From NCBI GenBank assembly GCA_016342495.1, contig JAEIOG010000053.1:1-34219 (forward strand): 34,219 nt of DNA. The letters are read 5' to 3'. The position numbers were made by a program, and so were the translations under genes. Source of the stretch: Phycisphaerae bacterium. Its GTDB lineage: Bacteria > Planctomycetota > Phycisphaerae > Sedimentisphaerales > SM23-30. The notes under the pieces were generated by a model. It made no database searches. It was not told the DNA's origin and worked only from the letters and a program-made list of their open reading frames with translations. This document shows, in pieces, positions 3,100-22,200 of this stretch (positions are counted from its first letter, which is position 1; the number at the start of each line of letters is the position of its first letter).

Positions 3100-4683
3100 A
3101 TGTTAAGGCGAAATTTTTTAAAAATTGTTGGTATTGGCGTTGGTATCGCTGTGACGGGTGAATCTTTTGCGGCCAGCTTTGTGTCAAAGTCCAAAATGCC
3201 TAATTTGTTGTTTATTATGACGGACCAACAGCGATGGGACGCTTTAAGTCTTGCAGGTAATCCTGTAGTTAAGACTCCCAATATTGACAAATTGGCTAGT
3301 GAAGGTGTGTATTTTGAAAGGGCTTATACTCAGTGTGCGGTTTGTGGGCCAGCCAGAGCTTCGATTTTGTCAGGCCGTGCGGTAGAAAACCATGGTGTGG
3401 TGACAAATGATCATGCTAATCCGGGTAAAAGTGAAGATGTTTTTGCGGTGAAATCTTTTGATGAGATTCTTCATCGGAAGGGTTATCTCAGTGAATATTA
3501 TGGTAAATGGCATTGTCCAGATCATCGTGCGAAGATTTATCGAAATGCGGTAGAAGTCTGTCATGGTGATAGTCCTTTTGGTTTACCTTTATTTGGCAGA
3601 TATAGAAAGTTTTTAGATAAAAACCTTAAACGCAGAAAGCCTGGTCAGGGCGAACAAGTATCCGGTTCGTACAATTGGATATATAAGATGGATCCGATTG
3701 ATCGTAGATTTAATTTGCCAAGTGATACAGATATTAAGGTTGTTCAGCCTGACAATCATGGCAAATTGCTTGTGCCAGCGGAATTGTCGCCAACGGCTTA
3801 TCAGGTTTCCGAAGTAATGGATGCTTTAGATAAGGTAGGTAGCAAACCATTTAATATTACTTGTTCAATCACATATCCTCATGCGCCCATGATACCAACA
3901 GAGCCTTATTATCAGATGTACAAGCCTGAAGATATGCCAGTTCCGGTTAGTATTGATGATGATATGAAAAATAGTCCTTATAGTGATGCCAATGGTAGAA
4001 AACGTTTGCCAGAATACCGTGATAAAGAAAAAATCAAGTATATGATTTCTAATTATTATGGTTTGATTAAAGAAATTGATGACTGGGTAGGCAAGCTTAT
4101 TAAAAAACTGGAAGAAAAAGGCCTGGCTGAGAATACATTGGTAATATTTACCAGTGACCATGGTGAAATGCTTGGTTCGCATGGTATGAGGGAAAAGAAT
4201 GTATTTTATGAAGAATCAGCCCATATTCCTTTGGTTATACGTTTTCCTGGTAGAATTAAACCAAATTCAGTTGTTAAGCAACCGATTTCGCAAATAGATT
4301 TGTTTGCAACTATTCTTGATTATATGCAGGCAGGGGACCATGAGTCTGATGGTAAAAGTTTGCGTCCATTAATTGAAGGGGAAGATAAAACGGATAAGTT
4401 TATTGTTTCGGAATGGCTATGGCATGGAGATAGGGTGCCTTGTTATATGGTTGTAAGCGGTGACTGGAAATTGTTCTGTCCGCATACGCCAGAATCTAGG
4501 ATTGTTAATGTTTTGTATAATCTTAAAGATGACCCATATGAAATGAATAATCTTATTGGGAAGAACCCTGATAAGCTGAAGTATGCTGCTCAGGTAGAAA
4601 AGATGAAGGCAATGCTGGTGTCGTGGTTGGTCTCGATTGGCTCTAAAAATGTTGATGGAGTAAGAAAAAGGAAGATGATTTAG
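3100..4683 (+). CDS. Secreted sulfatase (S1 family, FGly type)
   Basis: Predicted glycan sulfatase of 527 residues. MLRRNFLK followed by a hydrophobic segment to about residue 25 looks like a Tat-type leader. The metal site starts at MTDQQRWD (D42, with Q43 where many family members have a second Asp). The formylglycine motif is C-G-P-A-R from C82. A second metal motif, SDHGEMLGSHG, is near residue 350. The TDQ variant and the CGPAR core resemble choline-sulfatase/iduronate-2-sulfatase-like branches rather than the CSPSR branch of the divergent neighbour, so the two enzymes probably attack different sulfate positions (inference). AAGGA lies about 10 bases before the ATG. It sits 42 bases after the pseudopilin gene and about 80 bases before the GH38 gene, so co-transcription is likely. 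Confidence 0.93.
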   Translation: MLRRNFLKIVGIGVGIAVTGESFAASFVSKSKMPNLLFIMTDQQRWDALSLAGNPVVKTPNIDKLASEGVYFERAYTQCAVCGPARASILSGRAVENHGVVTNDHANPGKSEDVFAVKSFDEILHRKGYLSEYYGKWHCPDHRAKIYRNAVEVCHGDSPFGLPLFGRYRKFLDKNLKRRKPGQGEQVSGSYNWIYKMDPIDRRFNLPSDTDIKVVQPDNHGKLLVPAELSPTAYQVSEVMDALDKVGSKPFNITCSITYPHAPMIPTEPYYQMYKPEDMPVPVSIDDDMKNSPYSDANGRKRLPEYRDKEKIKYMISNYYGLIKEIDDWVGKLIKKLEEKGLAENTLVIFTSDHGEMLGSHGMREKNVFYEESAHIPLVIRFPGRIKPNSVVKQPISQIDLFATILDYMQAGDHESDGKSLRPLIEGEDKTDKFIVSEWLWHGDRVPCYMVVSGDWKLFCPHTPESRIVNVLYNLKDDPYEMNNLIGKNPDKLKYAAQVEKMKAMLVSWLVSIGSKNVDGVRKRKMI

Positions 4684-4762
4684 TTTTGCTTAAATTATAT
4701 GAATTATTTGAAGAAATATTAGGATTGATTGAATAGGCAGGTTGGATAGGGCAATTTGTATT

Positions 4763-7702
4763 ATGGGAAAAGAAATTATTTCAAATAAGGTGAAATTAAC
4801 TAGCAATGAATATGAAATGCTAGAGATTAAAACGATAAAAAGAGTTGGTAAAAAAACTCAATGTCATTTCATATCTAATACGCATTGGGATCGGGAATGG
4901 CGTTTTTCTATGCAGCGTACGCGTCACATGCTGGTATATATGATGGATATGTTATTGGATATTTTTGAAAAAGAGCCACAGTTCAAATCATATCACCTTG
5001 ATTCGCAGACAGTGCCTTTGCAGGATTATTTGGAGATACGTCCAGAAAAAAAAGATATTTTAATGCAACTGGTAAAAGAAAAGAAGCTTTTTGTAGGGCC
5101 ATGGTTTTGTTTGCCAGATGAGTATTCGCTGGGCGGTGAATCGCTTATTCGTAATCTTCTCTTAGGTCACAAAATAGCCAAGGGTATGGGGCATGTTAGT
5201 AAGACCGGTTATTCACCTTTTGGCTGGGGGCAGATTTCGCAGATGCCACAAATTTATAAAGGTTTTGGTATAAACTTTGCTGCTTTCTATCGCGGTGTAA
5301 GTACAGAGGCAGCGCCAAATTCAGAATATCTATGGCAAGGCGCTGATGGCACAGAGATTGTTGCTTCCCGTCTCGGGATGCGTCCTCGATATAATGTATG
5401 GTATGTGGTTCAAAGGCCTGCATACTGGCAACAGGAAGATGAGAATAATCGTGTGATTCCATGGTCGTGTGGTTCTGGCCCATTTAAGTTTGTAGGTGAG
5501 CAGTATCAGGATTTTGATGCCCAATATGCGCGTCCGAAATATAATTATGATAAATCAGTGATTCCTGCCAGGGCAAAGCAGGCGATGGAGGAGCAGGATG
5601 GTGACTGGACAACAGATCATCGTTTCTGGTCTTGTGGTCATGATTCATCCTGTCCGGATATCCGTGAAGTTCAGATGATTAAAGATTGCAATGATGCTCT
5701 TGAAGGCAGTTCGGATGTTTTTCACAGTAGCTTTGAAGAGTTCCAGAAGCAGATTCTGGAAAATGTCTCTGATAAGTTGCCAACATTGAAAGGTGAGATG
5801 CGATATTATTCTGATTCGAAAGTTACAAGTCCATTGTTTGGTTGGATTATCTCGGCGCGAATGGATGTGAAGATGGATAATTTCAAGACTGAACGTGAGT
5901 TGATACAGTATGCAGAGCCACTTGCCGTATATGCAAGTATGCTGGGAGCTGGTTATCCTCAGGGGTTTCTGGATAATGCCTATAATTGGTTATTGCAAAA
6001 TCACGGTCATGATTCTATCGGTGGATGCAGTCGTGGTATTATTAGTGATGATATGTTATTTAGAACTCGTCAATGTCGAGAAATATCAAGTTGTGTTGCT
6101 GAAAGGGCACTGCTTGATATAGCTGGTGCTATAGATTATTCTGGTTATCAGGATGAGCAAATTGCATTGTTTGTTTATAATCCGGCTTCATTTAGTCGTG
6201 ATGAGGTTGTTTCTTTGAAGTTGGAAATTCCAAGAGATTATCAATCAGGAAGTTTTGAGATATTTGATGCTGATGGCAATGAAGTTGACCTTCAAATTGA
6301 AGGTTCAGATGATTCGTTCCAGATTGTGCAATCGCCTAATGATACGGCAAATGCTTTTATGACAAAGCAATATCGAGCCAAGGCAAAGCTTAACGATATT
6401 CCTGCGATGGGATATAAAACATTTTTTGTGAAGCCTATTGGTGAACAAGATGTTGTTCCTTCTCGTCCGGCAAGTATGGTGACCAATATAAATACGATGG
6501 AAAACGAATGTCTGCGAGTTGTAATTGAGGCCAATGGTACAATGACTATTACTGAAAAGCAGACAGGTAGGGTTTTTGAACGTATGGGTTATTTCCGTGA
6601 TACAGCTGAGGTGGGTAATCCCTGGCAGCATGAAGATGTGGAATATATGCAATCTTTTACCACGATTAATGAAAGAGCTGAGGTTTGTCTGGTCAAGGAT
6701 GGTGCTTTGGAAGCATCTTACAGGGTTGTGATTGATTGGCTACTGCCGGAATCAAGGTCTGTTGGCGATAAATCCCGAAGTGATAGAAAGAAAGTTGTAA
6801 AACTTATTAATACAATAACTTTACGCAAAGGGCAAGAGTGGGTTGATATAACAACGGAAGTTGACAATACAGTTGAAGATCATTATTTGCAAGTTGCTTT
6901 TCCATGTGGGGTAGTGGCTGATAAGGTTTTTGCTCAAGGACAATTCGATGTGCTTGAGCGTTCTGTGAAATTGCCTTATTCGGAAAAATACCGTGAGCCA
7001 CCTCAATCTGAAGAGCCCATGAATTCGTTCATTGATATTACAGATGGTCAAAATGGTCTTGCTATTATTAATGAAGGTATGAAAGCTTATGAGGCGACAG
7101 ATCAGAATTGTCCAGAATTACGTCTTACTTTGTTACGCAGTTTCCCTTTACGTATTTGTGTTACACAAGAAATGACTGATTATAGCCAAGTTGATAAAAG
7201 TTCGCAGTGTCTGGGTGTTCATAAATTTCATTATGCGGTAATGCCACATCAAGGAGATTGGCAGCAAGCTGGTTTGTGGAAAGCTTCTGAACAGTTTAAT
7301 TTGCCTTTGGTTATTGCTCAAACGGCACCAGTTCAAGATGGAACAGAGTCTTTGGAGAAATCTTTCCTTGAAATCTCCCCAGATGATTTGCATGTCAGTG
7401 CAGTCAAACGCAGTGAAGATGGGCTGGGCTGGGTTGTACGGTTGTTCAATCCATTTGAAAAAACTGTTAAGGGTAAAGTCAGGCTCAATGGAGGTCTATG
7501 TAATGTGCGGTCATTGCAATCTCCAGTTGAGAGAGTGCGGTCTGAATTTAAGCTCTCTGATCAGGCTGGATGGCCATGGAAAGAGATTCGTCTTGTTGAT
7601 TTGGAGGAAAATGATGGCGATAAGGTGTGTTTGGATATGGCAGGTTGGGTCGATGTTGAAATAGGTGAAAAGAAGATTGTAACGATGAAATTTTTGGCCT
7701 AA
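4763..7702 (+). CDS. GH38-family alpha-mannosidase homologue with altered active site
   Basis: A 979-residue protein of glycoside hydrolase family 38 (exo-alpha-mannosidases). The N-terminal block SNTHWDREW supplies the usual zinc His and Asp (H41, D43). The family block GPWFCLPDEYSLGGESLIRN and the His motif NHGHDSIGGCS (H416) are intact, followed by the C-terminal beta-sandwich half. The segment normally reading GY(L)PDSFG, which carries the nucleophile and zinc-ligand Asp, here reads GYSPFGWGQISQMPQIY: the Asp position is Phe (codon TTT 5219-5221). Activity is therefore doubtful or non-canonical. No signal peptide is obvious, so a cytoplasmic site is likely. I prefer ATG 4763, preceded by ATAGGG; a TTG at 4742 is in frame but poorly placed. 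It is the last gene of the 2239-7702 run. Confidence 0.88.
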   Translation: MGKEIISNKVKLTSNEYEMLEIKTIKRVGKKTQCHFISNTHWDREWRFSMQRTRHMLVYMMDMLLDIFEKEPQFKSYHLDSQTVPLQDYLEIRPEKKDILMQLVKEKKLFVGPWFCLPDEYSLGGESLIRNLLLGHKIAKGMGHVSKTGYSPFGWGQISQMPQIYKGFGINFAAFYRGVSTEAAPNSEYLWQGADGTEIVASRLGMRPRYNVWYVVQRPAYWQQEDENNRVIPWSCGSGPFKFVGEQYQDFDAQYARPKYNYDKSVIPARAKQAMEEQDGDWTTDHRFWSCGHDSSCPDIREVQMIKDCNDALEGSSDVFHSSFEEFQKQILENVSDKLPTLKGEMRYYSDSKVTSPLFGWIISARMDVKMDNFKTERELIQYAEPLAVYASMLGAGYPQGFLDNAYNWLLQNHGHDSIGGCSRGIISDDMLFRTRQCREISSCVAERALLDIAGAIDYSGYQDEQIALFVYNPASFSRDEVVSLKLEIPRDYQSGSFEIFDADGNEVDLQIEGSDDSFQIVQSPNDTANAFMTKQYRAKAKLNDIPAMGYKTFFVKPIGEQDVVPSRPASMVTNINTMENECLRVVIEANGTMTITEKQTGRVFERMGYFRDTAEVGNPWQHEDVEYMQSFTTINERAEVCLVKDGALEASYRVVIDWLLPESRSVGDKSRSDRKKVVKLINTITLRKGQEWVDITTEVDNTVEDHYLQVAFPCGVVADKVFAQGQFDVLERSVKLPYSEKYREPPQSEEPMNSFIDITDGQNGLAIINEGMKAYEATDQNCPELRLTLLRSFPLRICVTQEMTDYSQVDKSSQCLGVHKFHYAVMPHQGDWQQAGLWKASEQFNLPLVIAQTAPVQDGTESLEKSFLEISPDDLHVSAVKRSEDGLGWVVRLFNPFEKTVKGKVRLNGGLCNVRSLQSPVERVRSEFKLSDQAGWPWKEIRLVDLEENDGDKVCLDMAGWVDVEIGEKKIVTMKFLA

Positions 7703-8322: not shown

Positions 8323-9840
8323 ATGAAGAAGCTTTATTTATTGTTTTTGTTGTTAGCTATGGTTGGTTTTGCAAGTGCCGCCACGGTATGGAATCCTGCC
8401 GCCAATGAGATTGTCCCGCCAGCTACAGGCAATTGGGGTATTGGAGCAAACTGGACTAATGAAGTGCCAGGTGTCGCTGATCCCAAAGCCGTCTTTAATG
8501 TTCCAGATGCAGCTGATTGTATTGTCTCTGACAGTCAGACCTTGACTGATCTGGTTCAAGGTGATGGTGGTCCCGGTGGGGTCATTCGCATCGTTAACGG
8601 GGGAAACCTTACAACTACAGGTGGCTGGATGTCAGTTGGCTATAATAATACAGCTACACTGATTGTCGAAAAAGGTGGCGAAGCTACTTTTAATGGCCAT
8701 TGCTGGTGGGGAATGAAAAATGGTGGTGATGGTACAGTTGTTCTTGATGGCGGTAATATCACTGGTAATAACAGTTTTGGTCTTGGAGAGTATTTTGGCC
8801 CCGAGCATGGCCAATGTAAGGTTTATATTAAGGATGGTACCCTGAGTGTGCATCACTGGTCTGGTGCGATAGATAGTGCCCACCCTGTGTTCTGGAATGA
8901 CTCGTTAATTGATATTGAATATGGCACTCTAATTGTTCGTAATGATACCTCTGTAGCAATTGCACAGGCTTATGTCGATGCTGGTAGAATTACTGGTTTT
9001 GGTATCGAAGGTAATGTTACAGTTGAGAACGTTGATGGCGCTATTGTTATGACGGCAACAAATGACCCAATGAATCCTTCGCCAGTCAGTGTTGTTATTC
9101 CTACTGGCGATGTTACTTTGAGCTGGACTAATCTGGTTGCAACTGATCCTAATGGTGTTCCTACTGGCGAAGATGTAACTGTTGATGTATGGTTTGGTAC
9201 CGATCCCAATAAGCTTGACTTAGTTAATTATCCACAAGTTATTACGGATGGCCTTAACACAACTTCTGTTGGTGTTTCTGCTGCTGTTCCTGCTGCTTAT
9301 TACTGGCAGGTTGATACCACTATTGGTGGTGAGACTATTGTAGGCCATGTTCATAGCTTCCTGGCGGCTAATGATTTCCCACCAGTTCCAAATGCTGGTC
9401 TTGATATGATTACCTGGTCGGGCAAAGAAACTCAACTGGATGCTGATGCTGGCGACGATGGCAGTTCAGCTGTTACATACGCCTGGACCGCTGAAGCTCC
9501 TGAAGACGTTACAGTCACTTTCTCAGATACCACAATCGAAGACCCAACTGTGACAATCGATAATGCTTCTGAAAATGCAGTTGTAACCGTTACCTTAACT
9601 CTTAATGTTCATGATGTAAATAATCCAACTGATATTCCAGACAGCATGAGAATTACTGTTTATGCAGATGCCTGTCAGGCAGCTCGTATTGGTCAAGGTA
9701 AGGCTGAAAATTATCTGGCTGACACAAATGGCGATTGTATAGTCGATATAACTGACCTGGCTCTATTGGCCGGGCAATGGCTCTCTGACTATGCTTTGGA
9801 ATTTGCAATTGAAGTTCAAGAAGAGGCTGCAATTGAATAA
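8323..9840 (+). CDS. Secreted modular protein: shared N-terminal module, Fn3-like, PKD-like, dockerin-like
   Basis: A secreted non-catalytic protein of 505 residues with no enzyme motif that I recognise. After a signal peptide (MKKLYLLFLLLAMVGFASA) comes the shared ~225-residue module beginning ATVWNPAAN and containing NWTNEVPG, LVQGDGGPGGVIRI and GYNNTA blocks; its regular Gly/Asn repeats suggest a beta-helix or beta-roll. Residues about 250-350 form a fibronectin-like domain (VWFGTDPNKLDL, YYWQVDT), about 352-450 a PKD/cadherin-like domain (NAGLD...LDADAGDDG), and about 455-490 a DACQAAR stretch with one dockerin-like calcium loop, ADTNGDCIVDITDLALLAGQW. AGGAG sits 7 bases before ATG 8323, which decides the start over nearby in-frame ATGs at 8296 and 8317. 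It is first in the series and a tandem paralogue of the next gene. A role as surface or scaffold glycan-binding protein is inference. Confidence 0.82.
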   Translation: MKKLYLLFLLLAMVGFASAATVWNPAANEIVPPATGNWGIGANWTNEVPGVADPKAVFNVPDAADCIVSDSQTLTDLVQGDGGPGGVIRIVNGGNLTTTGGWMSVGYNNTATLIVEKGGEATFNGHCWWGMKNGGDGTVVLDGGNITGNNSFGLGEYFGPEHGQCKVYIKDGTLSVHHWSGAIDSAHPVFWNDSLIDIEYGTLIVRNDTSVAIAQAYVDAGRITGFGIEGNVTVENVDGAIVMTATNDPMNPSPVSVVIPTGDVTLSWTNLVATDPNGVPTGEDVTVDVWFGTDPNKLDLVNYPQVITDGLNTTSVGVSAAVPAAYYWQVDTTIGGETIVGHVHSFLAANDFPPVPNAGLDMITWSGKETQLDADAGDDGSSAVTYAWTAEAPEDVTVTFSDTTIEDPTVTIDNASENAVVTVTLTLNVHDVNNPTDIPDSMRITVYADACQAARIGQGKAENYLADTNGDCIVDITDLALLAGQWLSDYALEFAIEVQEEAAIE

Positions 9841-9864
9841 AAATAGTTTTGGTTATTTTGCTGG

Positions 9865-9885
9865 TATCTGAGGTTGTCTCAGATA
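9865..9885 (+). terminator. Intercistronic hairpin
   Basis: TATCTGAG-GTTGT-CTCAGATA is a perfect 8-base stem with a 5-base loop, 24 bases after the stop of the first module gene. No clear T-run follows, so it is more likely a transcript-stabilising or partial termination element than a full terminator. Confidence 0.5.
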
Positions 9886-9945
9886 ATCACAACTTTATTA
9901 TTATTCAGTAAATATTTACTGATATATTTTCAGGAGTAGACAAAA

Positions 9946-11472
9946 ATGAAGAAACTTATGTTATTATTAATTTTATTGTTTATGGCTGTTGCTGTTGAAG
10001 CGGCTACTGTTTGGAATCCTGCAGCCAATGGAATTGTTCCTCCGGCTACAGGTAAATGGAGCGATGGGGCCAACTGGACAAATGGGGTTCCTGATGCTGT
10101 GGATGCCCAAGGTGTTGCCTTGAATGATGGCAAAGCCGTATTTAATGTAGAAGGTGCCGCTGAATGTATTGTGGATTATCCTGATGCTACCTGTACTCAA
10201 ATTGTATCGGGCGATAACGGTCCTGGTGGCGTGCTTCGTATTGTCGACGGAGGATTTATTACTACCAGAAAAGACTGGTCAAGCATGGGCTATAGCAACA
10301 CAGGCACATGGATAGTTGAAGAAGGCGGAGAGATGTATATTGGCAGTCACCTGTGGACGGCCTTAAGGGCTACCGGTGTTGGAACTTTAATCATCAATGG
10401 CGGAACGATTAAAATTGCAAACGCTTTAGATCTTGGCCGAGATGCTGGTTCTGTTGCAAAGGTATATCTTAATGAGGGATATCTGCAGACTCGCTACTTC
10501 CCAGATGACAGCGACAATGAGGGTTCTGTTTTAGATATCAGATACGGTACTTTTGCAACTACGAATAACTATACTGCCACAGATAGCCCTCTTTGGAAAC
10601 GTATAAATGCGGGAACTATAGTCGCTTTTGGTGGCACAAGCACACTGAATGTTGAAAGAAAAGATGGCTTAACGCTTGTTACCGCTGTTGATCCAATGAA
10701 TGTATTTCCTGCTGATGGCGATGTTATTCGTAATGGCGATGTAACTTTGACCTGGGATAATCTTGCTCCACTAGATCCTAATGGCGTTGCTACCGGTGAA
10801 GATGTAACTGTTAATGTTTGGTTCGGTACCGATCCAAACAAACTTGACCTTGTACAATATCCACAGGTTGTTACCGACGGTGTAAACACAACTTCAGTTG
10901 CTGTTACCGCTGGTGTTGCTAAATATTACTGGCAAATTGACACAACTTTTGCTGATGGTACAGTTCAAGTGGGCCATGTTTACAGTTTTCTGGCAACCGA
11001 TGATTTCCCACCTGTTACTGATGCTGGCCTTGATGTGATTTCATGGTCTGGTAATGAAGTGCAACTAGATGCTGATGCTGGTGACGATGGTACATCGACT
11101 GTAACATATGCCTGGACATATGATGCACCTGAAGGTACTACCGTTACCTTCTCAGATACAACAATCGAAGACCCAACTGTCACGATTGACAAAACAACTG
11201 AAGGTATGGTTAATGTTACTTTGACTCTTGCTTGCTATGATGCAGCGAACCCAACACCTGTATCAGATAGCCTGACAGTGTCGGTTTATGACAATGCCTG
11301 TCAGGCGGCTCGTGTAGGAGACAATCAAGCAGGTAATTATCTAGCCGACACTAATGGCGACTGTGTAGTTGACCTAAATGACTTTGCTTTATTGGCAAGC
11401 CTGTGGATGGATGATTATACTATGGAAAACCCAATTACTGTTCTTCCTGAAGCTGAAGGAGTAATTGAATAG
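9946..11472 (+). CDS. Secreted modular protein, tandem paralogue of the preceding gene
   Basis: 508 residues with the same domain order as the upstream gene: signal peptide (MKKLMLLLILLFMAVAVEA), shared module starting ATVWNPAANGIVPPATG, Fn3-like domain (VWFGTDPNKLDLVQYPQVV), PKD-like domain (DAGLD...LDADAGDDG), then DNACQAARVG and one dockerin-like loop ADTNGDCVVDLNDFALLASLW near residue 467. The C-terminal half is much closer to the upstream paralogue than the N-terminal module is, including near-identical DNA around the TIEDPTVTID segment. The module carries an insertion near NGVPDAVDAQGVALNDG. CAGGAG lies upstream of the ATG with good spacing. Both paralogues end in a short acidic tail finishing with I-E. 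Function unknown; likely non-catalytic and surface-associated. Confidence 0.82.
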   Translation: MKKLMLLLILLFMAVAVEAATVWNPAANGIVPPATGKWSDGANWTNGVPDAVDAQGVALNDGKAVFNVEGAAECIVDYPDATCTQIVSGDNGPGGVLRIVDGGFITTRKDWSSMGYSNTGTWIVEEGGEMYIGSHLWTALRATGVGTLIINGGTIKIANALDLGRDAGSVAKVYLNEGYLQTRYFPDDSDNEGSVLDIRYGTFATTNNYTATDSPLWKRINAGTIVAFGGTSTLNVERKDGLTLVTAVDPMNVFPADGDVIRNGDVTLTWDNLAPLDPNGVATGEDVTVNVWFGTDPNKLDLVQYPQVVTDGVNTTSVAVTAGVAKYYWQIDTTFADGTVQVGHVYSFLATDDFPPVTDAGLDVISWSGNEVQLDADAGDDGTSTVTYAWTYDAPEGTTVTFSDTTIEDPTVTIDKTTEGMVNVTLTLACYDAANPTPVSDSLTVSVYDNACQAARVGDNQAGNYLADTNGDCVVDLNDFALLASLWMDDYTMENPITVLPEAEGVIE

Positions 11473-11490
11473 CAACTTTATAATTTGATG

Positions 11491-11522
11491 GGCATCTGGG
11501 AAGGTCCCAGATGCCTTATTTT
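11491..11522 (+). terminator. Strong hairpin with T-rich tail
   Basis: GGCATCTGGGA-AGG-TCCCAGATGCC is a perfect 11-base stem with a 3-base loop, followed by TTATTTT. It fits an intrinsic terminator, or an attenuator between the second and third module genes, since the next gene starts only 28 bases later and shows no clear promoter of its own. Confidence 0.72.
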
Positions 11523-11549
11523 CAGTATATGTTTTTTAGGAGTGAGAAA

Positions 11550-12356
11550 ATGAAGAAGTTAATGTTAGTATTGTTAGTGTTATCAATGGCTGTTACTGCA
11601 AATGCGGCAACCGTTTGGAATCCTGCAGCCAATGGTATTTCTCCACCAGATGTAGCCAACTGGGGTGATGCAGCCAACTGGACTAATGAAGTTCCCGGTG
11701 TCAATGATACTAAAGCTGTATTCAATGTTAATAATGCAGCAGAGTGCCAGATAACCAGTGCCCAGACTGTAAAAGATTTAGTTCAGGGTGATGGTGGCTA
11801 CGGTAGTGTTATTCGTATTACTAATAGCGCAACCTTTTCAACTACAGGTGGCTGGACAGGTATCGGCTATAACAACACTGCCCATTTGATCGTTGAAACC
11901 GGTGCGGCTATGAACATTGCTGGTCATTTATGGACAGGTATTTATTCTGGGGCTACAAGTACCATAGATATTAGCGGACTTGTATCTGTTGGTGGAAATC
12001 TTGGTATTGGCTCTATTAACGCTGTAAGTGCTGGCGGTGGTGCTGGAACAATTAACGTCCTTGATGGCGGCGTTTTGGCTCTGGACCATTGGAATGGTGA
12101 TGGCAATGGTTCTATTCAGGCTGGCTCACTTATTGACATTAATGGGACCGGTACTATTACGCTACAAGGTGACTGGGTAAATTCAGTAGATAATTATATT
12201 GCTAATGATCGCCTTGCTGGTAATGGCATTATTGGTAATGTAGACGCTACATTTACAAATGGCGTTACTACCATTACTGCTGTCCCTGAGCCTTTAACAA
12301 TGAGTTTGTTAGGTTTAGGTGGTATGTTTATTGTGAGACGTCGTCGCTCAAATTAA
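11550..12356 (+). CDS. PEP-CTERM protein with the shared N-terminal module
   Basis: 268 residues: signal peptide (MKKLMLVLLVLSMAVTANA), one copy of the shared module (ATVWNPAANGISPPDVANW, NWTNEVPGV, LVQGDGGYGSVIRI, GYNNTAHLIVE), and then a PEP-CTERM sorting tail: VPEP, a short hydrophobic helix, and a terminal RRRRSN. PEP-CTERM proteins are normally processed by an exosortase, which is not in this window. This member is essentially the module alone plus a sorting tail, the minimal surface-displayed form of the family. The start is set by AGGAG 8 bases before ATG 11550; an earlier in-frame ATG at 11511 lies inside the upstream hairpin and has no ribosome site. Confidence 0.88.
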   Translation: MKKLMLVLLVLSMAVTANAATVWNPAANGISPPDVANWGDAANWTNEVPGVNDTKAVFNVNNAAECQITSAQTVKDLVQGDGGYGSVIRITNSATFSTTGGWTGIGYNNTAHLIVETGAAMNIAGHLWTGIYSGATSTIDISGLVSVGGNLGIGSINAVSAGGGAGTINVLDGGVLALDHWNGDGNGSIQAGSLIDINGTGTITLQGDWVNSVDNYIANDRLAGNGIIGNVDATFTNGVTTITAVPEPLTMSLLGLGGMFIVRRRRSN

Positions 12357-12385
12357 GTGGTAGTTGATTAAATAAATCAGAAATC

Positions 12386-12404
12386 AAAGAGTCGGCTCTT
12401 TTTT
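12386..12404 (+). terminator. Short intrinsic-terminator-like hairpin
   Basis: AAAGAG-TCGG-CTCTTT forms a 6-base stem with a tetraloop and runs directly into further T residues. It follows the PEP-CTERM gene by 30 bases. The rest of the 155-base gap to the next gene is A/T-rich, with no promoter that I can assign confidently. Confidence 0.6.
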
Positions 12405-12511
12405 GGGCTGGCTCTTTTCTTAATTATATAGTTTATTATCAGTAATATTTTGACGATAAAGTAATATAGAGGGTTATGTTAGTTGCAGTTTTGCAAAGGA
12501 GATTTTGAGAA

Positions 12512-14671
12512 ATGCTCAACATGATTTTGAAATTATGTGTAGTGGTATTAGTATTGACTGGCGGGGTTTTGGTTAATGCTGCTTCAACTGTGTGGGATCC
12601 GGCAGCTAATGATATATATCCACCGTCCCAGGCAAACTGGAGTGATTGGCATAACTGGACCCAGAAAGTTGTCCCGGGTGACTTTAAGGTTGTTTTTAAA
12701 GTATCAGGAGCTGCTGATTGTATTGTTAATAATACCCAAACTGCAACCCAACTGGTTCAAGGTGACAATGGCCCAGGCGGAATGATTTGTATCAAAAATG
12801 GTGGCAATCTTACTGCTGGTACAACTCCTGTCTGGACGAGCATTGGCTATAACAATACAGCAAAGGTTCTTGTTGAACAAGGTGGGGTTTTCAGTGTAAA
12901 AGAACATCTTTGGATAGGATTTACCGCAGGTGCTATAGGGACATTACAAATTGATGGCGGGGTCGTAAATGTTGCACAGATGATAGGGTTGGGTTGGTCT
13001 GGAGGAACTGGATATATTAATCTGAATGATGGTGTTCTGAACCTTAAGGATATCCATGCTACAGATTCAATCAAAGGTGATTCGGTGATAGATATTGAAC
13101 TAGGTGTTATTATTATTGATGGGAATAAAAAAACAATTATTGATAATTATATTCAGGCCAGCAGAATAACTGCTTATGATGGAACTGGCAAGGTATATTG
13201 TGATTATAATGCGACCAATACCGGCAAAACGACGGTGTGGGCAGAGCCTGCTGAAATAGTTTTTGGTACAGGTGATATTAATGCGGATAATTTTATAGAT
13301 ATTTTAGATTTACAATTATTTATTGGGCAATGGTTAAGTGTTGCCCCTGGTTCTGAAGCTGACTTAACAAAGGATCAGAAAGTAAATATGGATGATTTGC
13401 ATATATTGGCAGGAAACTGGCATAGAAATGAATATAGTAAAACACTAACAGGAAAAATTATGTGTGGCTATCAGGGTTGGTTTAACACGCCCACCGATGG
13501 GGCAGGTCGTGGATGGGTGCATTGGGGAAGTGGCGGAAAATTTGAGCCCGACTATTGTACGATTGATATCTGGCCGGATATGAGTGAATATGATTCCGAT
13601 GAAAAATATGATACAGGTTTTCAAAATGCTGATGGCAACATTGCCCAGGTATTTAGTTCTTATAATGAAAAAACAGTGTTGAGACACTTTCAATGGATGC
13701 AGGAATATGGTATCGATGGTGTATTTCTTCAGCGATTTGCGACAGAAACTACACCGGGTTCCAGCGGTAGAAGTCATCGTGATCAGGTCATGCTCCATTG
13801 CCGCAAAGGTGGCAATCAGTATAATCGTGCCTGGGCAATGATGTATGATATATCAGGATTAGCAACAGGAGGAACCCAACGGGTAATAGATGATTGGAAA
13901 TATCTGGTTGATACTTTTAATGTCGGTCAAGACCCTGAAGATCTTGCATATCTTCATCATAATGGTAAACCTGTCATCGCTCTGTGGGGTATTGGTTTTA
14001 AGGACAGGGCATACACTCTTGATGAATGTCTGGCTATGGTTAATTTCTTCAAAAATGATCCAGTTTATGGCGGAATGACTGTTATGTTGGGGGTGCCAAG
14101 TTATTGGAGAACTTTATCGGGTGATTGTGTTAGTGATCCGAAAGTACATGAAATTATTTTAGCGGCAGATATTGTCAGTCCATGGGCCGTGGGCCGATAT
14201 AGCAGTGTTTCTTCCAGCGGTGTCCCTACTGCTAGTGGTATTGATAATTATACCAATAATGTAACCGCCCCGGATAAAATCTGGTGTGATTCAAATAGCA
14301 AGGAATACTTGCCGGTTGTTTTTCCAGGTTTTAGCTGGCAGAACCTCAAAGGCGAGAAGTTTGACCATATCCCTCGATTAGGAGGCAGGTTTCTCTGGCA
14401 TCAAATCTATAAGTCTATCAATGATGCCGGTGTTACTATGATTTATCAGGCGATGTTTGATGAAGTCGATGAAGGTACCGCTATTTTTAAATGCACCAGC
14501 ACACCACCAGTTGGCCCGACACCATTTTTACCAATCGGCAATGCCACATACCCACCTTATGATATTAGTGATGCCAACTTGCCCAGTGATCATTATCTAT
14601 GGCTTGTAGGGCAGGCAACCAGAATGCTAACAGGAGAAATACCTGTGACAGAGGCTATGCCAACACGGTGA
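12512..14671 (+). CDS. GH99/GH71-like secreted glycoside hydrolase with shared module and dockerin-like pair
   Basis: 719 residues. A signal peptide (to about residue 23) leads into the shared module (STVWDPAANDIYPP, LVQGDNGPGGMICI, GYNNTAKVLVE), then two dockerin-like repeats at about 252-312 (GDINADNFIDILDLQLFIGQW and LTKDQKVNMDDLHILAGNW). From residue 314 a bacterial GH99/GH71-like catalytic domain begins with KIMCGYQGWFNTP and runs through RHFQWMQEYGIDGVFLQRF to a carboxylate-rich MFDEVDEGTAIF near 647, the likely catalytic region. Characterised GH99 enzymes cleave inside alpha-mannans or glucosyl-mannose glycans, and GH71 enzymes act on alpha-1,3-glucan; the exact substrate here is unknown. 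AAAGGAG precedes the ATG. The next gene follows after 60 bases, so co-transcription is likely. Confidence 0.85.
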   Translation: MLNMILKLCVVVLVLTGGVLVNAASTVWDPAANDIYPPSQANWSDWHNWTQKVVPGDFKVVFKVSGAADCIVNNTQTATQLVQGDNGPGGMICIKNGGNLTAGTTPVWTSIGYNNTAKVLVEQGGVFSVKEHLWIGFTAGAIGTLQIDGGVVNVAQMIGLGWSGGTGYINLNDGVLNLKDIHATDSIKGDSVIDIELGVIIIDGNKKTIIDNYIQASRITAYDGTGKVYCDYNATNTGKTTVWAEPAEIVFGTGDINADNFIDILDLQLFIGQWLSVAPGSEADLTKDQKVNMDDLHILAGNWHRNEYSKTLTGKIMCGYQGWFNTPTDGAGRGWVHWGSGGKFEPDYCTIDIWPDMSEYDSDEKYDTGFQNADGNIAQVFSSYNEKTVLRHFQWMQEYGIDGVFLQRFATETTPGSSGRSHRDQVMLHCRKGGNQYNRAWAMMYDISGLATGGTQRVIDDWKYLVDTFNVGQDPEDLAYLHHNGKPVIALWGIGFKDRAYTLDECLAMVNFFKNDPVYGGMTVMLGVPSYWRTLSGDCVSDPKVHEIILAADIVSPWAVGRYSSVSSSGVPTASGIDNYTNNVTAPDKIWCDSNSKEYLPVVFPGFSWQNLKGEKFDHIPRLGGRFLWHQIYKSINDAGVTMIYQAMFDEVDEGTAIFKCTSTPPVGPTPFLPIGNATYPPYDISDANLPSDHYLWLVGQATRMLTGEIPVTEAMPTR

Positions 14672-14731
14672 TTTAATATTGGTACAATATATGGTTTGGA
14701 ATGTTTGAATGAATTAGCATAGGAAAAGATT

Positions 14732-17700
14732 ATGAGAAAAATACCTGTGAGCAGTATGCCTTTTTTGGTAGTGATATTTCTTACTGTTGGAACATTTGTT
14801 CATGCAGCGACAGTCTGGAATCCTGTGGCCAATGGGATTACCCCTCCGGTTTCTGGAAATTGGAATGAAGCAGGGAATTGGACCAATGGAGTCCCTGTTG
14901 CAACTGTTCCAGGCGAAGTTAAAGCCCAGTTTAATGTTGCTGATGCCGCTGAGGCGGTCGTTTCTGATACCCAATCTCTTGCTCATCTTGTCCAGGGCGA
15001 TAATGGTCCTGGTGGCGTGATTCGTGTTATTGGCGGTGGAACTTTGAATGCTGGTCCTATCTGGCATGCTATCGGGTATAATAATACCGCGAAATTGATT
15101 GTGGAAGCCGGTGCCATGGTGAATTTTGGTGGCCATTGCTGGTGGGGGATGCACACTGGAGCCGATTCTATTGTTGAGATTAATGGCGGAATTATCAATG
15201 GCTCGCAAAGTTTTGGTCTTGGCGAATGGTTTGGCGGAGAAGGTGATCACGGCCAATGTAAGGTTTATGTTAATGCTGGTGAGCTTAATATTCATCATTG
15301 GACTGGTGCGATTGATAGCGATCATCCGGTATTTTGGAATGATTCATTTATTGATATCAGCAATGGCTCGGTTACCATTATCGGTAATAAAGTTGATGAA
15401 GTGAATGCTTATGTAGCGGCAGACAAAATAATAGCTTTTGCTGGCACCGGGGAGGTGGTTGTAGAGTATAGCCAAATTACCGACAAAACTTATATAACAG
15501 CAATCTCGGGAAATGAAACTGACGCTCCACTACCTGACCCGGCATCGTTTGCAATAATGCCCAAAGCTCAGGGTGCTGAAACGATTGTGATGACTGCCAC
15601 AACAGGTTTCGATGATAGTGGCGTGGTTGAATATTATTTCGATGAGATTACAGGAAATCCAGGCGGTGCCGATAGCGGTTGGATCGCATATAATAGCTAT
15701 GCTAATACTGACTTGGCACCGGGTACATCATATACTTATACAGTTAAAATGCGTGACGCTTTTGGCAATGAAGGTGCAGCTTCGACCCCGGCAGGTGCAG
15801 CCACCTGGACTGCAGAGACTGTTACTATTACCTGGAACCCGGCGGCAAATCATATATATCCGCCAAACAAAGCCAGTTGGTCTGATGCAGGCAATTGGAT
15901 TGGAGCTACCTCCGGTATGCCCGATGGCAATTTTAAATATTCATTTAGTAAAGATAATGCCTCTGAATGTGTCGTAACTGAGGACCATATTTTTAATCAA
16001 CTGGTTCAAAATGTTAGTGGTTCCAGTGTTCTTCGCATAAAAAATGGCGGGAGCATTACAACAGGTAAAAACTGGTCTGGTATAGGGTACAATCAAAAAA
16101 CCAATATGATGATCGTTGAGAGTGGCGGTCAGGCTAATTTTGGCGACCACCTCTGGATCGGACTATATTCACCTTCTGTTGGTGTTTTAGATATAGATGG
16201 CGGAATTGTCAATGTTGCAGGTCAGCTCGGTCTTGGTTGGAATACTGGCAGAGGAACTGTAAGTGTTAAAAATGGTGGTGTCCTGAATCTAAATACCATT
16301 GATGGATCAAGGGCGATCGGTGATGGCTCAGTTGTCGATATTGAAAATGGATCTATTATCATTAATGGTGATAAAGTTTCGATTGTGGCTGACTACATTG
16401 CAACCAATAAAATTACAGCTTTTGGCGGTAATGGCAAACTTGTCTATGACTATAATTCGACCAACTCAGGCAAAACCACAATCAAAGCGATTGAAAATGT
16501 CCAAGGCGATATCGATGGCGATGGCGGTGTTGATATCGATGATCTGGGTATTTTGCTTCATAATTGGCTTTCTACACCTTGTGGCAACGAAGCTAATTTT
16601 GATTATCTTTGCAAAGTAGACTTACGAGATTTTGTGGTTTTGGCTAGAAACTGGTTAACTGGTTTACCAATGAAATGGCATATCGTCGAGACTGTTTACC
16701 CTACCGAGGATTATGTTATAAGTCCTTATTGGGCTGAAGATTTTGGTATTGTTGCTGATGGTATTACAGATGTTACCGAAGCGATTCAGACAGCTCTGAT
16801 TTCAATCAATAATCTTGGCGGAGGGACTTTATTCTTGCCTGCCGGTAAATATAAAGTTAGTGGAAATCTAACAATTCCTTCAAGAGTCACTTTACGTGGT
16901 GACTGGCAGAAACCCCAGGCTGGTAGTCCAATTGTCGGGACGATCTTGCAGGCTTATGCTGGTCGAGACGATGTCAATGGAATACCATTTATTGAACTAA
17001 GTAATAGTTCAGGACTTAGAGGTATTGCTATCTGGTATCCCGAACAAATGCCCACAGATATTCAGCCTTATCCTCCTACAATTCATGGTGGGGGCGTAAC
17101 TCTTGAAAATATTACGCTGGTCAATTCATATTTTGGATTCACGACTTATCTGGATGGCACTACTGCTTGTCCTTTTGTTCGTGGTGTTTATGGGACTCCG
17201 CTTTATATCGGAACCGAATATGATCGATTAGCTGACATCGGGCGAATTGAATCAATTCATTTTTCGCCTGCTTATTGGGCCGATTCAGGTTTGCCAAATG
17301 CGCCAACCGCAGGAGAACATGAAGCGTGGATATACAATAATGGTACCGGTATGATAGTTCGGCGTATTGACTGGTCCTATTCCTGTTATGTGACGGTTGA
17401 AGGCTACAATACAGGTCTGGCCTTAAGGCCATCGCGATGGGCAGAAGATAGTGGGAGTACTCCGAATGGCCAGTCTTATGGATTTAATCTTATTGGTTGT
17501 AAAACCGGGATATATATTGAAAAAAGCGCATACGCTGGTTATCAATTCACCCGGTTTAATATTAAGGGAGCCGAGACGGGGGTTTATCTGAGTAGCTCTG
17601 CGACTGAGGCAACTATGTTCCATACATGCATTATTGATGCTTCAGGTGATGCTGTTTTATGTGAGGGGACCGCAAAGATCATGATGATGTCATGTGATAT

Positions 17701-19198
17701 TCAGTGCGGAACATTGGATATTAATGGCGGCTATTTGTCAGTTATCAATTCTGACTTTGCAGTAACCGCGGGTAATCATATAGAGCTTGCCAGTGATGTT
17801 CATGGGGCTTCTATTCTTGGCAATCGATTTGCAGGTGGTGCTAAAATCGTAGACAGTACAAGTTATCCGGTGAATATAGATCATACAGATTTAGCTGTCG
17901 ATCCGCTACCAGATTATGATTACAAAAAACCTACCAAGTCTTATAAACCTGCAAAACCTGATGTTTTTGTTGTTACCAGATCTCCGTATAATGCGAAAGG
18001 TGATGGTGTCACAGATGATACCACAGCTTTTGAGATGGCATTGGCTGAGGCTGCTTTAAATGGCGGTGGAACAGTTTTTGTGCCAGGGTCTAATTATCGC
18101 ATAGATGGTAATCTTGTGATTCCTACTGGTGTTGAACTGAGAGGTGTTTTCGATATTGCTCATGATACCAGAGTAAAGGGGAGTTTGATAAATATTTATG
18201 GTGGTCGCAATGATGCTAATGGCACACCAACGATTCAGCTGGAATCTGACTCTGGTATTAGAGGTTTAACTTTTCATTATCCAGAGCAAATATATGATGA
18301 AACTGACACAGTTAATTATGGCATGAAGCCTTATCCATTTTTGATGCGTGGCTTGGGAGCTGATATATATATTATTAATATCGCTGCGACGATTCCATAT
18401 CAGATTTTAGATCTGGCAACTTTTCGTTGCGATCGTCATTATGTTGATTATGTTAAAACTACCGCTTTGAAAACTGGTATTCATGTCGGCAATGGTTCAA
18501 CTGATGGCCAGATTCATAATTGCCAGTTCAATCCATCGCTTTATACTCATCAAGGCTTGTACTATGACAGTATTCCTCTGGATACGTCAGATAATATCCA
18601 TAAAATTCTCTGGCGTGATGCAACACCTTATCTGTTTGGCCATATGGTTAATGAAGTTCTTCATGAGAATTTTGTTTTTGGTGGTGCTCAAGGTATGCAT
18701 CTTGTCGAAGAAAATGGTCAGGGCCCATCAGGTTATTGCCTGGGTATGGGTGTTGATCAATGTACCAATGCGTTCCAGATTGATAATATTGGCAGTAAAG
18801 GTCTTGATGTGATTAATTCTCAGATCGTGACTGTTAATGCAACTGCGGGTCGTTATCTTGAAGTCGGTGTAGACTTTAATGATACCTTCCGAATGTTTAG
18901 TTCAGCTGGTTGGGGCAGTCATCAGTATAGTGCTGTTGTTAATGGCGGTGATGTTAAACTTCAGCTATTCCATTTGGCCCGTGATGGTGAAACAGGTGCA
19001 TTTAAGGTTGCAAATAATGCTAATCTGGAAAACCTTGGCGGCGATTTGCGAGATTACCTTGGCACTGGCAGGCCTTACTTGACTATTGATTCAACCGCTA
19101 CAGCAAAGTTTGTTGGTAATATTATTAATACCACTTCTGCTCAAATCCCGACGGAGTCCTCCAATGTGATTAGCATTGGGAATCTGAGGGTGCAATAA
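14732..19198 (+). CDS. Secreted tandem beta-helix (pectate-lyase-3-like) protein with two shared modules
   Basis: 1488 residues. A signal peptide (to about 26) is followed by shared module copy 1 (27-262), an Fn3-like domain (about 265-365, with YYFDEITGNPGG), shared module copy 2 (about 368-588, TWNPAANHIYPP), and two dockerin-like repeats (about 592-645, GDIDGDGGVDIDDLGILLHNW). Two right-handed beta-helix domains of the pectate-lyase-3 type then begin near 669 (DFGIVADGITDVTEAIQTAL) and near 1086 (NAKGDGVTDDTTAFEMALAE). Each has the GGGT(L/V)F(L/V)P...(G)NL.IP..V.LRG block. Paired helices of this type occur in GH55 exo-beta-1,3-glucanases, and the same fold also hosts polysaccharide lyases and GH28, so the reaction cannot be named. 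Copy 1 resembles the 8323 gene and copy 2 the 12512 gene, pointing to domain shuffling. AGGAAAAG precedes the ATG. Confidence 0.83.
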   Translation: MRKIPVSSMPFLVVIFLTVGTFVHAATVWNPVANGITPPVSGNWNEAGNWTNGVPVATVPGEVKAQFNVADAAEAVVSDTQSLAHLVQGDNGPGGVIRVIGGGTLNAGPIWHAIGYNNTAKLIVEAGAMVNFGGHCWWGMHTGADSIVEINGGIINGSQSFGLGEWFGGEGDHGQCKVYVNAGELNIHHWTGAIDSDHPVFWNDSFIDISNGSVTIIGNKVDEVNAYVAADKIIAFAGTGEVVVEYSQITDKTYITAISGNETDAPLPDPASFAIMPKAQGAETIVMTATTGFDDSGVVEYYFDEITGNPGGADSGWIAYNSYANTDLAPGTSYTYTVKMRDAFGNEGAASTPAGAATWTAETVTITWNPAANHIYPPNKASWSDAGNWIGATSGMPDGNFKYSFSKDNASECVVTEDHIFNQLVQNVSGSSVLRIKNGGSITTGKNWSGIGYNQKTNMMIVESGGQANFGDHLWIGLYSPSVGVLDIDGGIVNVAGQLGLGWNTGRGTVSVKNGGVLNLNTIDGSRAIGDGSVVDIENGSIIINGDKVSIVADYIATNKITAFGGNGKLVYDYNSTNSGKTTIKAIENVQGDIDGDGGVDIDDLGILLHNWLSTPCGNEANFDYLCKVDLRDFVVLARNWLTGLPMKWHIVETVYPTEDYVISPYWAEDFGIVADGITDVTEAIQTALISINNLGGGTLFLPAGKYKVSGNLTIPSRVTLRGDWQKPQAGSPIVGTILQAYAGRDDVNGIPFIELSNSSGLRGIAIWYPEQMPTDIQPYPPTIHGGGVTLENITLVNSYFGFTTYLDGTTACPFVRGVYGTPLYIGTEYDRLADIGRIESIHFSPAYWADSGLPNAPTAGEHEAWIYNNGTGMIVRRIDWSYSCYVTVEGYNTGLALRPSRWAEDSGSTPNGQSYGFNLIGCKTGIYIEKSAYAGYQFTRFNIKGAETGVYLSSSATEATMFHTCIIDASGDAVLCEGTAKIMMMSCDIQCGTLDINGGYLSVINSDFAVTAGNHIELASDVHGASILGNRFAGGAKIVDSTSYPVNIDHTDLAVDPLPDYDYKKPTKSYKPAKPDVFVVTRSPYNAKGDGVTDDTTAFEMALAEAALNGGGTVFVPGSNYRIDGNLVIPTGVELRGVFDIAHDTRVKGSLINIYGGRNDANGTPTIQLESDSGIRGLTFHYPEQIYDETDTVNYGMKPYPFLMRGLGADIYIINIAATIPYQILDLATFRCDRHYVDYVKTTALKTGIHVGNGSTDGQIHNCQFNPSLYTHQGLYYDSIPLDTSDNIHKILWRDATPYLFGHMVNEVLHENFVFGGAQGMHLVEENGQGPSGYCLGMGVDQCTNAFQIDNIGSKGLDVINSQIVTVNATAGRYLEVGVDFNDTFRMFSSAGWGSHQYSAVVNGGDVKLQLFHLARDGETGAFKVANNANLENLGGDLRDYLGTGRPYLTIDSTATAKFVGNIINTTSAQIPTESSNVISIGNLRVQ

Positions 19199-19253
19199 TA
19201 ATATTAAGACTTTAATTATTTGCATTTGAACTATGGTTATAACTGAGAAAATT

Positions 19254-22200
19254 ATGGATAAACAAAAACTAAAAATGATGTCAAAAACCCTTCTTGTAAG
19301 ATATTTATTGTTTATGATGGTAGGGGGTCTATATTTTAATGCTTCTACGCAAGGTTCTTCTATAGTTGGTGATTTCAATGGTGATTGTATTGTAGATATT
19401 GAGGACTTGGCAATTACCACTTCGCAATGGCTCGGTGAACCATTCAATGCAGAAACAGGTTTGGTGGCACATTGGAAATTGGATGAAAGTGTAGGCGCAG
19501 GTTTTGATTCTTCTGGTTCGGGTTTGTATGCTATCCCTGCCGGACCAATCTGGAACCCTCAGGGAGGGTATTTGGATGGAGCTTTGCAGTTTGATGGTAT
19601 TGATGATTATATTTGGATAAGCCAGGGTTATCAGGGTGTCCCAGGTTCCAGTCCACGTTCTTGTACTGCCTGGGTCAAGGCAGTTGTTCCTCAGGGTGAT
19701 ATTTTTGCATGGGGAAATTTAGATGGTCCGGGGCAGGGTTGGGTCGTTAGAATTGATCAATGGGGTGCAATTGGAGTTGATGTTGGCCAAGGATATGTCG
19801 TTGGTTCACAAAATATAGCTGATGATTTATGGCATCATATTGCAGTTACATTTGATGGCACGACAACAGATGATATTACTCTTTATATTGATGGCCAAAT
19901 CGAAACAATTTCTGGTATTGTTTCTTGCCCTGTCAATACCCAGACATCTGGAACAGTCAAACTCGGAGTCTATTTACTACCTTTTCTCAAAGGGAATTTT
20001 TTTAATGGGTTAATTGATGAAGCACGAATTTATAACCGGGATTTGACTGATAATGAAGTCTGGAATCTGGCCAATAAAGGTTCAACAGATAATGCTAATG
20101 CTGACCTTAATTCTGATAACAAGGTAGATCTTGCTGATTTTTTAATTCTTTCTGATAATTGGAATGTTCAGAATCCAACCATTATTATCAGTGAGTTTTT
20201 AGCTAACAATAATAGCAAATCCCCTTTGGAGTCAGGTGAGATTTTGGATGGCAATAATCAATCATCCGATTGGTTAGAGTTACACAATGTATCAGATGCT
20301 GCTGTTGATTTAAGCCAATTGTATTTGACCGATAATGTTAATTTTAAAACTAAATGGCAGTTTCCAGCAGAATCAGGTCAGTCAATATTGCCGCCCGGTG
20401 GCTATCTTTTAATATTTGCTTCGGGAAAAACGCAGGCGGAAAACCCTGATAATTATCCTTATGTTGATTCTGCTGGATATCTTCATACGAACTTTAAGCT
20501 TTCTAGTAATGGCGAGTATCTGGCCCTTATTGCTTCGGATGGAGAAAATGTGATCCATGAATATAGTCATTTCGATTTGGGTAGCGATGAGTTTGGCTAT
20601 CCAGGCCAGGAAGAAAATATTTCCTATGGTATATATTATGAGGATTTTCGTTATTTCGCAGAGCCAACTCCCGGTAAGGCTAACTTGAATTCTATTATCG
20701 GATTTACCCAAAAGCCAGATATGAATTTTAAGGGTGGATGTTATGCAGATGCGGTAAATCTGGAAATTACTTGTCAGGACCCAGAATCTTTCATTATTTA
20801 TACAACAGACAGGAGCGCTCCCAGTTTGACCAATGGTATCGTTTATTCTGGTTCAATTCAGTTAGATAGCTTAACTACCATAATCGCTAAATCTTTCAGA
20901 CCAGGCTATCATTCTTCTGATGCCAGAATTGAAACTTATATTTTTATTGAGCAAGATGTGGCATCTTTTAATTCAAATTTACCAATTGTTGTTCTTGATA
21001 CATTGGGCCAGAGTATTCCGCATAAAGATGATGAGGACTTTGATGACCCATACACTGATTGCCGAGCAGTAATTATTGATACCGACCAGACAACAGGCAG
21101 GAGTGTAATTACTGGATCTGAACATTTTGCCGGTTTGGGGCAGATTCGCCGCCGTGGCGAAAGCACCTACGGTCAAGGCCATTATGCTTTTGAAATCCAG
21201 GATGAATATGGGATGGATAAAGAAGTTTCAATTTTAGGCATGCCCGCCGAATCGGATTGGATTATTACTTATGATACAATTGATAATTCTTTTCTTAAAA
21301 ACGAAGTGGCTTTTAACTGGTTCCGAAATATGGGCCATTATGCACCAAGACAGCGTTATGTCGAAGTCTATCTGAATACAGATGGTGGGAAAATTTCTAC
21401 TAGTGATTTTCAAGGGCTTTTTGTTGTTCGCGAGAAAATCAAACGCAATAATGATCGGGTAGATATTGCCCGTCTGGATAATTCCCATAATATCGAACCA
21501 CAGGTTTCAGGTGGATATATTATCAAATGTGATAAATTTAATACTGGCGATACTCTTCTTGCTGATGTTGAAACAGAACCTTACTCAATTCACACTACCG
21601 GCAATGGCAAGCCTATTCTTGCTGAACCCCAATCTGTCGAAGTAACCCAGCCACAGCTTGATTGGGTACAGAATTATTTAAGTGAATTTCATTCAGTTCT
21701 TTGGCAAAATGAAGATAGTAGCTTTTATCCTGGTTCAGAACTTCATTATTCCGATTATGTTGATGTTGTGTCATGGATTGATCACTTTATTGTCGAGCAG
21801 ACAGGTGCCGATTCTGATGCTTTCTGGGGCAGCTATTATACTCACAAAGACCGTAATGGTAAAATTTATTCAGGGCCAGTATGGGATTTTGATCGTGGAT
21901 TTCACAATAATGGCGGTGATTATGATCAGCCATACACTGCCTGGAGAAGTAATACAGCTATTTTTGGATCATGGCATCTGGAATTGCAGAAAGACCCGGA
22001 ATATAGAATCGCTCTTGCTGACCGCTGGTTCCTGCATCGTCAGGGTGTTTTGGGAACCGATCAGACGTTGGATCATATTAATCAGACAGTTGCCTTAATT
22101 GCCGAAGCAAGGTCCAGGCCACAAACTAAAGCTTATCCGAAGTCTTTTGCTGAAGAAACAAATCTATTCAAAAACTGGGTTACCAGCCGACTTGATTTTA

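Follow-up and report, generated by a model that had tools for sequence, protein, structure and literature searches.

The stretch analysed here, called the window below, comprises 34,219 nucleotides of contig JAEIOG010000053.1 from a Phycisphaerae bacterium (Planctomycetota; assembly GCA_016342495.1) and contains five consecutive plus-strand genes for secreted proteins, over which a module of about 225 residues is spread in six copies. The initial annotation had reported these copies, and profile and alignment placed all of them where it had put them: copy 1 (8380..9063) in gene 8296/8323-9840, copy 2 (10003..10689) in gene 9946-11472, copy 3 (11607..12284) in gene 11511/11550-12356, copy 4 (12584..13249) at the N-terminal end of gene 12512-14671, and copies 5 (14807..15508) and 6 (15824..16495, internal) in gene 14732-19198. 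The ATGs at 8323 and 11550 are internal to open reading frames 8296 and 11511, and both starts are plausible; by eye, a signal-peptide-like segment opens each of the five genes. In an alignment of the six copies, 34 columns were invariant, mean column identity was 57%, and identity to the copy at 11607 was 38–47%. Each copy was recovered from the genome by the six-copy profile at E 4e-101 to 8e-91 (in-sample by construction), and the copy of P0003, the product of gene 11511, used alone as query, matched the other five at E 3e-59 to 6e-36. Chance is excluded by these values, and the six copies are true homologues.

Four fates had been described for the module, and the PEP-CTERM tail, the GH99 fold, the tandem beta-helices and the dockerin of gene 12512 were all recovered; the Fn3/PKD labels of genes 8296 and 9946 were weakly supported (PKD_4, E 0.37). 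Gene 8296 continues after its module with an Fn3/PKD-like plus dockerin-like tail (9064-9837, plus strand) that is conserved in the cassettes of other genomes, and a tail of the same type, also recurring in other cassettes, follows the module of gene 9946 (10690-11469, plus strand). Genes 8296, 9946 and 14732 are dockerin-like by eye, and a dockerin above cut-off was found only in gene 12512, whose product P0004 carries a type I domain (13271..13408, plus strand; PF00404, 27.2 bits, cut-off 22.9). Nothing in the genome, which is 95% complete, exceeded the cut-off for cohesin PF00963, although a dockerin above cut-off is present, and the dockerins are therefore without a known partner. Gene 11511 encodes the module and a PEP-CTERM sorting signal (12279..12347, plus strand; PF07589, 24.5 bits, cut-off 20.7) and nothing else, and its product qualifies as a PEP-CTERM/exosortase substrate, the signal being accompanied by an exosortase in the genome.

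In gene 12512 the order is module, dockerin and GH99-fold catalytic domain (13424..14668, plus strand). This last domain was matched to human MANEA by Foldseek (E 2.2e-10) and by profile (E 5e-5) and to the GH99 enzyme of B. xylanisolvens by VIA-align (Z 22.5); against Pfam GH99 (PF16317) it scored 11.3 bits, far under the cut-off of 33. Its FDEVDEGT segment (glutamates E651 and E654) aligns with FNEWHEGT of MANEA, an ExxE motif, so that both catalytic glutamates are kept; the pair is invariant in nine aligned GH99-like domains. The domain thus shares fold and glutamate pair with GH99 endo-alpha-mannosidases and mannanases but differs from them in its low identity (about 14%) and its sub-cut-off Pfam score; the candidates are GH99, GH71-like and GH195, which is related to GH99 and occurs in a locus for diatom sulfated mannan (PMC13063451).

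The two modules of P0005, the product of gene 14732, are separated by a conserved spacer (15509..15823, plus strand; Fn3-like by eye) that recurs between two modules in loci L019 and L024 and genomes G033 and G015. They are followed by a tandem pectate-lyase-like beta-helix domain (16664..19195, plus strand; PF12708 in two stretches) with a putative catalytic role. Homologues of this domain are 67–74% identical across Planctomycetota and Verrucomicrobiota/Pontiellaceae, so it is conserved far more than its attached modules, and it stands in one reading frame with a module in all four sampled genomes that have a full-length homologue. Its relatives in the PDB were weak and local only, and no enzyme activity was therefore assigned.

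The module itself had been called apparently uncharacterised, and this held at the level of named families. No family in Pfam, NCBIfam or PHROG scored above cut-off on the window copies or on their relatives, against PDB sequences the six-copy profile matched nothing and a wider one had only weak, unrelated matches, and the six-copy profile did not collapse into a known family above cut-off. Two things were added to the description, a sub-threshold kinship and an ordinary fold. TIGR04393, a T5SS/PEP-CTERM-associated repeat, was matched by 15 of 79 module members at E up to 1 (best 2.4e-5), and no other NCBIfam family was matched by more than one of the 79; members scanned singly against it reached at most 17.7 bits, under the 23-bit cut-off. 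Within the window's genome the best TIGR04393 score, 14.7 bits, fell inside copy 1 and did not reach that cut-off either, and copies 1 and 6 held two of the three best places genome-wide, all sub-threshold. As judged from these searches, the sole recurring kinship of the module is sub-threshold and to a functionless repeat. The two share glycine-rich, solenoid-type coils, and TIGR04393 was the only library family matched by many members; the module differs in being a fixed-length domain with a tryptophan-rich N-terminal cap, W83, an HxW motif and C-terminal helix and strands in addition. A search of a limited literature collection returned no paper naming the module, and none on tapirin with beta-helix or on the T5SS/PEP-CTERM repeat.

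Structure was predicted for two of the six copies. For copy 3, AlphaFold2 with a 44-sequence alignment gave a predicted local distance difference test score (pLDDT) of 95.7 and a predicted template modelling score (pTM) of 0.92, and the model consists of a run of short, solenoid-typical strands with an N-terminal cap and one late helix; copy 4, within the model of P0004, had the same secondary-structure pattern, also at high pLDDT. Foldseek found no significant match to the module model (best E 0.55; tapirin E 7.8). When the Foldseek candidates were realigned with VIA-align, in which the absence of a family from the output is no proof of its absence, the C-terminal domain of tapirin came top (Z 15.0, root mean square deviation 3.0, 162 residues); autotransporter passengers and stalks reached Z 12.6 and below, Ag43 being among the fold matches, and pectate lyases and the fucoidan lyase FdlA about Z 5 to 9. 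We read the predicted fold as an ordinary right-handed beta-solenoid, some 225 residues long and capped at its N-terminal end by a tryptophan-rich segment.

The cap residues W4/W19/NW25 are present in nearly all 79 members. Conservation was highest at the outward positions of the third strand of each coil (mean entropy 1.32 versus 2.13 and 2.41), the outward orientation being deduced from the alternation of hydrophobic residues instead of from coordinates, and the face having been noticed before it was scored; W83, H107 and W109 belong to it. Conserved columns are mostly glycine and tryptophan, and E97 is the clearest near-invariant acidic residue. From these positions we infer a candidate binding face made up of W83, H107, W109 and the Y88/W142 column.

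Relatives were found at 17 module loci of the species collection, in Planctomycetota, Verrucomicrobiota including Pontiellaceae, Bacteroidota (Marinoscillum, Mariniphaga) and Neomarinimicrobiota, and at one locus of the plasmid collection, in Persicobacter. The spread is patchy, since at E 1e-10 or better the module was found in only 3 of 246 sampled Planctomycetota genomes (that of the window and two others from its order). Two metagenome-assembled genomes labelled Halanaerobiaceae and Clostridia (L020, L021) carry near-identical Phycisphaerae-like module genes, probably on mis-binned contigs. Parts of the window's layout are repeated at the related loci, namely two module-Fn3/PKD-dockerin-like genes, one module-only gene and module-enzyme genes, and the genes around them encode GH38, a sodium:solute symporter, a GntR-type regulator, a CotH protein, a sulfatase and pilin-like proteins. 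Across loci, the module is fused to GH99-like, tandem beta-helix, sulfatase or GH3 catalytic domains, or to no catalytic domain; the GH3 enzyme, seen in a relative (L079:5784-9623), resembles a beta-glucosidase and contains a PA14 insert. In other phyla, close relatives adjoin GH99-like enzymes, GH92, GH38 and sulfatases. On the Persicobacter plasmid, SusC/D, GH92, GH71/99-like and sulfatase genes surround the module genes, two of which have annotated type IX secretion system (T9SS) tails. In Bacteroidota, the GH99-like enzymes are without a module, as are those neighbouring the module genes of Marinoscillum, and the modules are carried by separate T9SS proteins with one to five copies, the five-copy array lying in one protein of L027. 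Single-module proteins with no second module gene in the observed locus were seen in L025 and L028.

Co-occurrence with the GH99-like enzyme was counted in the window's order, where 7 of 59 genomes had a module match and 9 a GH99-like enzyme. All seven genomes with a strong module match carried the enzyme, versus 2 of the 52 others (Fisher p = 1e-7, relatedness uncorrected), a strong match being one of E 1e-20 or better, a limit set after the list had been seen (next best 4e-17), and fused module-GH99 genes contributing to the count.

A second cassette was found on contig 191 of the same genome (G000:C191:24940-37198 = L074:4941-17199), with six diverged modules in a row. It contains two module-PEP-CTERM genes, two genes with Fn3-like plus dockerin-like tails, one 1229-residue frame with module, dockerin and a catalytic-looking region of unassigned type, and a module-dockerin-sulfatase gene. 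Its flanking genes look, by eye, like GH127-type enzymes and an AraC-type regulator, for which reason its substrate probably differs from that of the window cassette. In genomes with two or more module cassettes, modules from different genes of one cassette were 39% identical and those from different cassettes of the same genome 28%, a difference reached in 0 of 2000 shuffles; the opposite trend was seen in one genome, G051, which has fragmented contigs. In the tree, one clade (support 100/98) held the module-PEP-CTERM copies of different genomes, and another (98/88) the second copies from tandem beta-helix proteins. Because these clades unite copies across genomes, the tree indicates that the cassette is old and that its members have kept their identity.

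Upstream of the module genes lie two recurrent neighbours, a sulfatase (3100..4683, plus strand; PF00884) and a GH38 alpha-mannosidase-like enzyme (4742..7702, plus strand; PF01074, PF07748), the latter adjoining modules also in G033, G015, G046 and L029. Downstream, a giant CotH-kinase/lamin-tail/LamG/dockerin-like protein of 1748 residues (19233..24479, plus strand) recurs beside the module cassettes of other genomes. Pseudopilin-like (N_methyl) genes were noted at 2239-3057 and 28683-29516 (minus strand), and similar ones adjoin module cassettes in several relatives. At 31869-34033 (minus strand), a gene for an extracytoplasmic function (ECF) sigma factor overlaps a FecR-NPCBM gene, a possible signalling pair.

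On balance we consider it probable, by a modest degree, that the module is the cassette-specific glycan-targeting part of a polysaccharide-degradation cassette, each variant being fitted to its own substrate. It most likely holds surface proteins and enzymes onto the polysaccharide that they digest. The module-PEP-CTERM and module-(Fn3/PKD)-dockerin-like proteins would serve at the cell surface as glycan binders without catalytic activity, the GH99 and tandem beta-helix enzymes would be kept on the same polymer by modules of their own, and each cassette would retain its own module variant, matched to its own substrate. For the window, the GH99, GH38 and sulfatase neighbours suggest a substrate that is probably a sulfated alpha-mannan-like glycan, by analogy with a diatom sulfated-mannan system in which breakdown is carried out by GH195 (a GH99 relative), GH92 and two sulfatases (PMC13063451). 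The initial annotation had proposed a common binding role that recruits enzymes and surface proteins to one ligand. The role is favoured by the enzyme neighbours in other phyla, by the two sorting systems and by the second cassette; 'one ligand' was too broad, because modules are cassette-specific and the cassette on contig 191 has different enzymes, and should read 'one ligand per cassette'.

Glycan targeting was rated highest because the enzymes and the surface-sorted non-catalytic proteins of one locus both carry the module, because surface sorting is kept while the system changes (PEP-CTERM and exosortase here, T9SS in Bacteroidota), and because of the five-copy array in L027. The module-free GH99-like enzymes and separate T9SS module proteins of Bacteroidota are as expected of surface glycan-binding proteins. 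Also counted in its favour were the fusions to catalytic domains, the co-occurrence with the GH99-like enzyme, the enzyme company of the relatives in other phyla, the greater likeness of modules within cassettes, the conserved outward face, tapirin as the best fold match and the existence of beta-helix glycan-binding domains (CBM54). Several points weigh on the other side. The orientation of the face is deduced from hydrophobic alternation, and the face was picked out before scoring; its aromatics fade in distant members (H107 in 43/79, W109 in 47/79); the genome co-occurrence counts ignore relatedness; and plain tandem duplication also yields within-cassette similarity and explains much of it. 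Autotransporter stalks, moreover, score near tapirin (Z 12.6 and below) and Foldseek finds nothing significant (best E 0.55), so that no function can be chosen from the fold, which alone cannot tell binding from a stalk.

The last of these points leads to the alternative that survives best, which we nevertheless judge unlikely: a structural N-terminal solenoid (a stalk, spacer or folding/secretion platform) of the T5SS/PEP-CTERM repeat kind, without a specific ligand and spread by duplication and whole-locus transfer. Such a part would belong to the same fold class as the autotransporter stalks and would account for the sub-threshold TIGR04393 matches, which occur in more members than those of any other family and place copies 1 and 6 among the three best genome-wide. 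In a stalk, however, copy number would be expected to vary and specific residues to be lost, whereas most enzymes here carry one fixed-length module, the cap W4/W19/NW25 is kept in nearly all members and one face is more conserved; the stand-alone module-PEP-CTERM clade across genomes would moreover be a stalk holding nothing.

More doubtful still is an assembly domain, by which modules would bind one another or a shared partner and the anchored proteins, dockerin-bearing proteins and enzymes of one cassette would form a surface complex. The Bacteroidota loci, in which the GH99-like enzymes have no module and module-module contact cannot recruit them, favour glycan targeting over docking, and the single-module proteins of L025 and L028 also speak against assembly. 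For it stand the cassette-specific similarity of the modules, the layout of module-PEP-CTERM, module-dockerin and module-dockerin-enzyme genes in two cassettes of one genome, the dockerins left without a known partner where no cohesin scored above cut-off, and self-associating autotransporters such as Ag43 among the fold matches. A purely homotypic form was set lower, as module-free GH99-like enzymes adjoin module proteins in Bacteroidota. That the module is a degenerate or still active lyase-like beta-helix is very improbable, since the Z values of about 5 to 9 to pectate lyases and FdlA, which would favour it, lie near the usual background for these models, the module is a short one attached to catalytic domains that are themselves complete, and glycine and tryptophan make up most of its conserved columns, E97 being the clearest acidic one.

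Given glycan targeting, a close parallel is CBM54, a carbohydrate-binding module (CBM) of ChiW, Lic16A and LamA. Like the module, CBM54 is an N-terminal, non-catalytic right-handed beta-helix of about 230 residues on cell-surface enzymes, and that of ChiW, a cell-surface chitinase, binds several polysaccharides; it differs in its Gram-positive hosts, its 12 coils, its self-cleavage motif and, according to the paper, the lack of an aromatic patch (PMC5132251). No sequence kinship to CBM54 was seen in PDB-sequence searches with the module profiles, no search of the CBM54 family itself having been made. As in CBMs generally, the module is a discrete domain, fused here to GH99-like, GH3, sulfatase and tandem beta-helix domains. 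The structural likeness to the C-terminal domain of tapirin (Caldicellulosiruptor, PDB 4wa0) is the best found, and tapirins attach cells to lignocellulose (PMC9933333). This likeness comes with 13% identity over the aligned part, a Foldseek E of 7.8 and another host group. Surface glycan-binding proteins of the SusE/SusF type are likewise non-catalytic surface proteins encoded in a polysaccharide utilisation locus, a setting matched by the SusC/D, GH92 and GH71/99-like genes around the module genes on the Persicobacter plasmid. SusE and SusF have a different fold and are lipoproteins, as opposed to the T9SS or PEP-CTERM sorting of the module proteins. We would class the module as a new family within a kind already known, one that would work like CBM54 if glycan targeting is right.

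A wider proposal, which we advance tentatively and hold to be somewhat short of probable, is that the module founds a new beta-solenoid glycan-binding family, diversified per cassette, that marks both the secreted enzymes of one cassette and its surface-anchored proteins and has been passed among four phyla together with its enzymes, PEP-CTERM being exchanged for T9SS. If so, cassette membership and substrate could be predicted from module sequence. Gene 11511, whose stand-alone copy is a small protein, makes the question testable at once. As a glycan binder, the module would add a fold rarely seen among CBMs. Planctomycetes and their relatives encode many sulfatases and glycosidases without the SusCD logic that makes Bacteroidota loci readable, and a shared, cassette-specific module would help to group the surface proteins and enzymes that serve one substrate.

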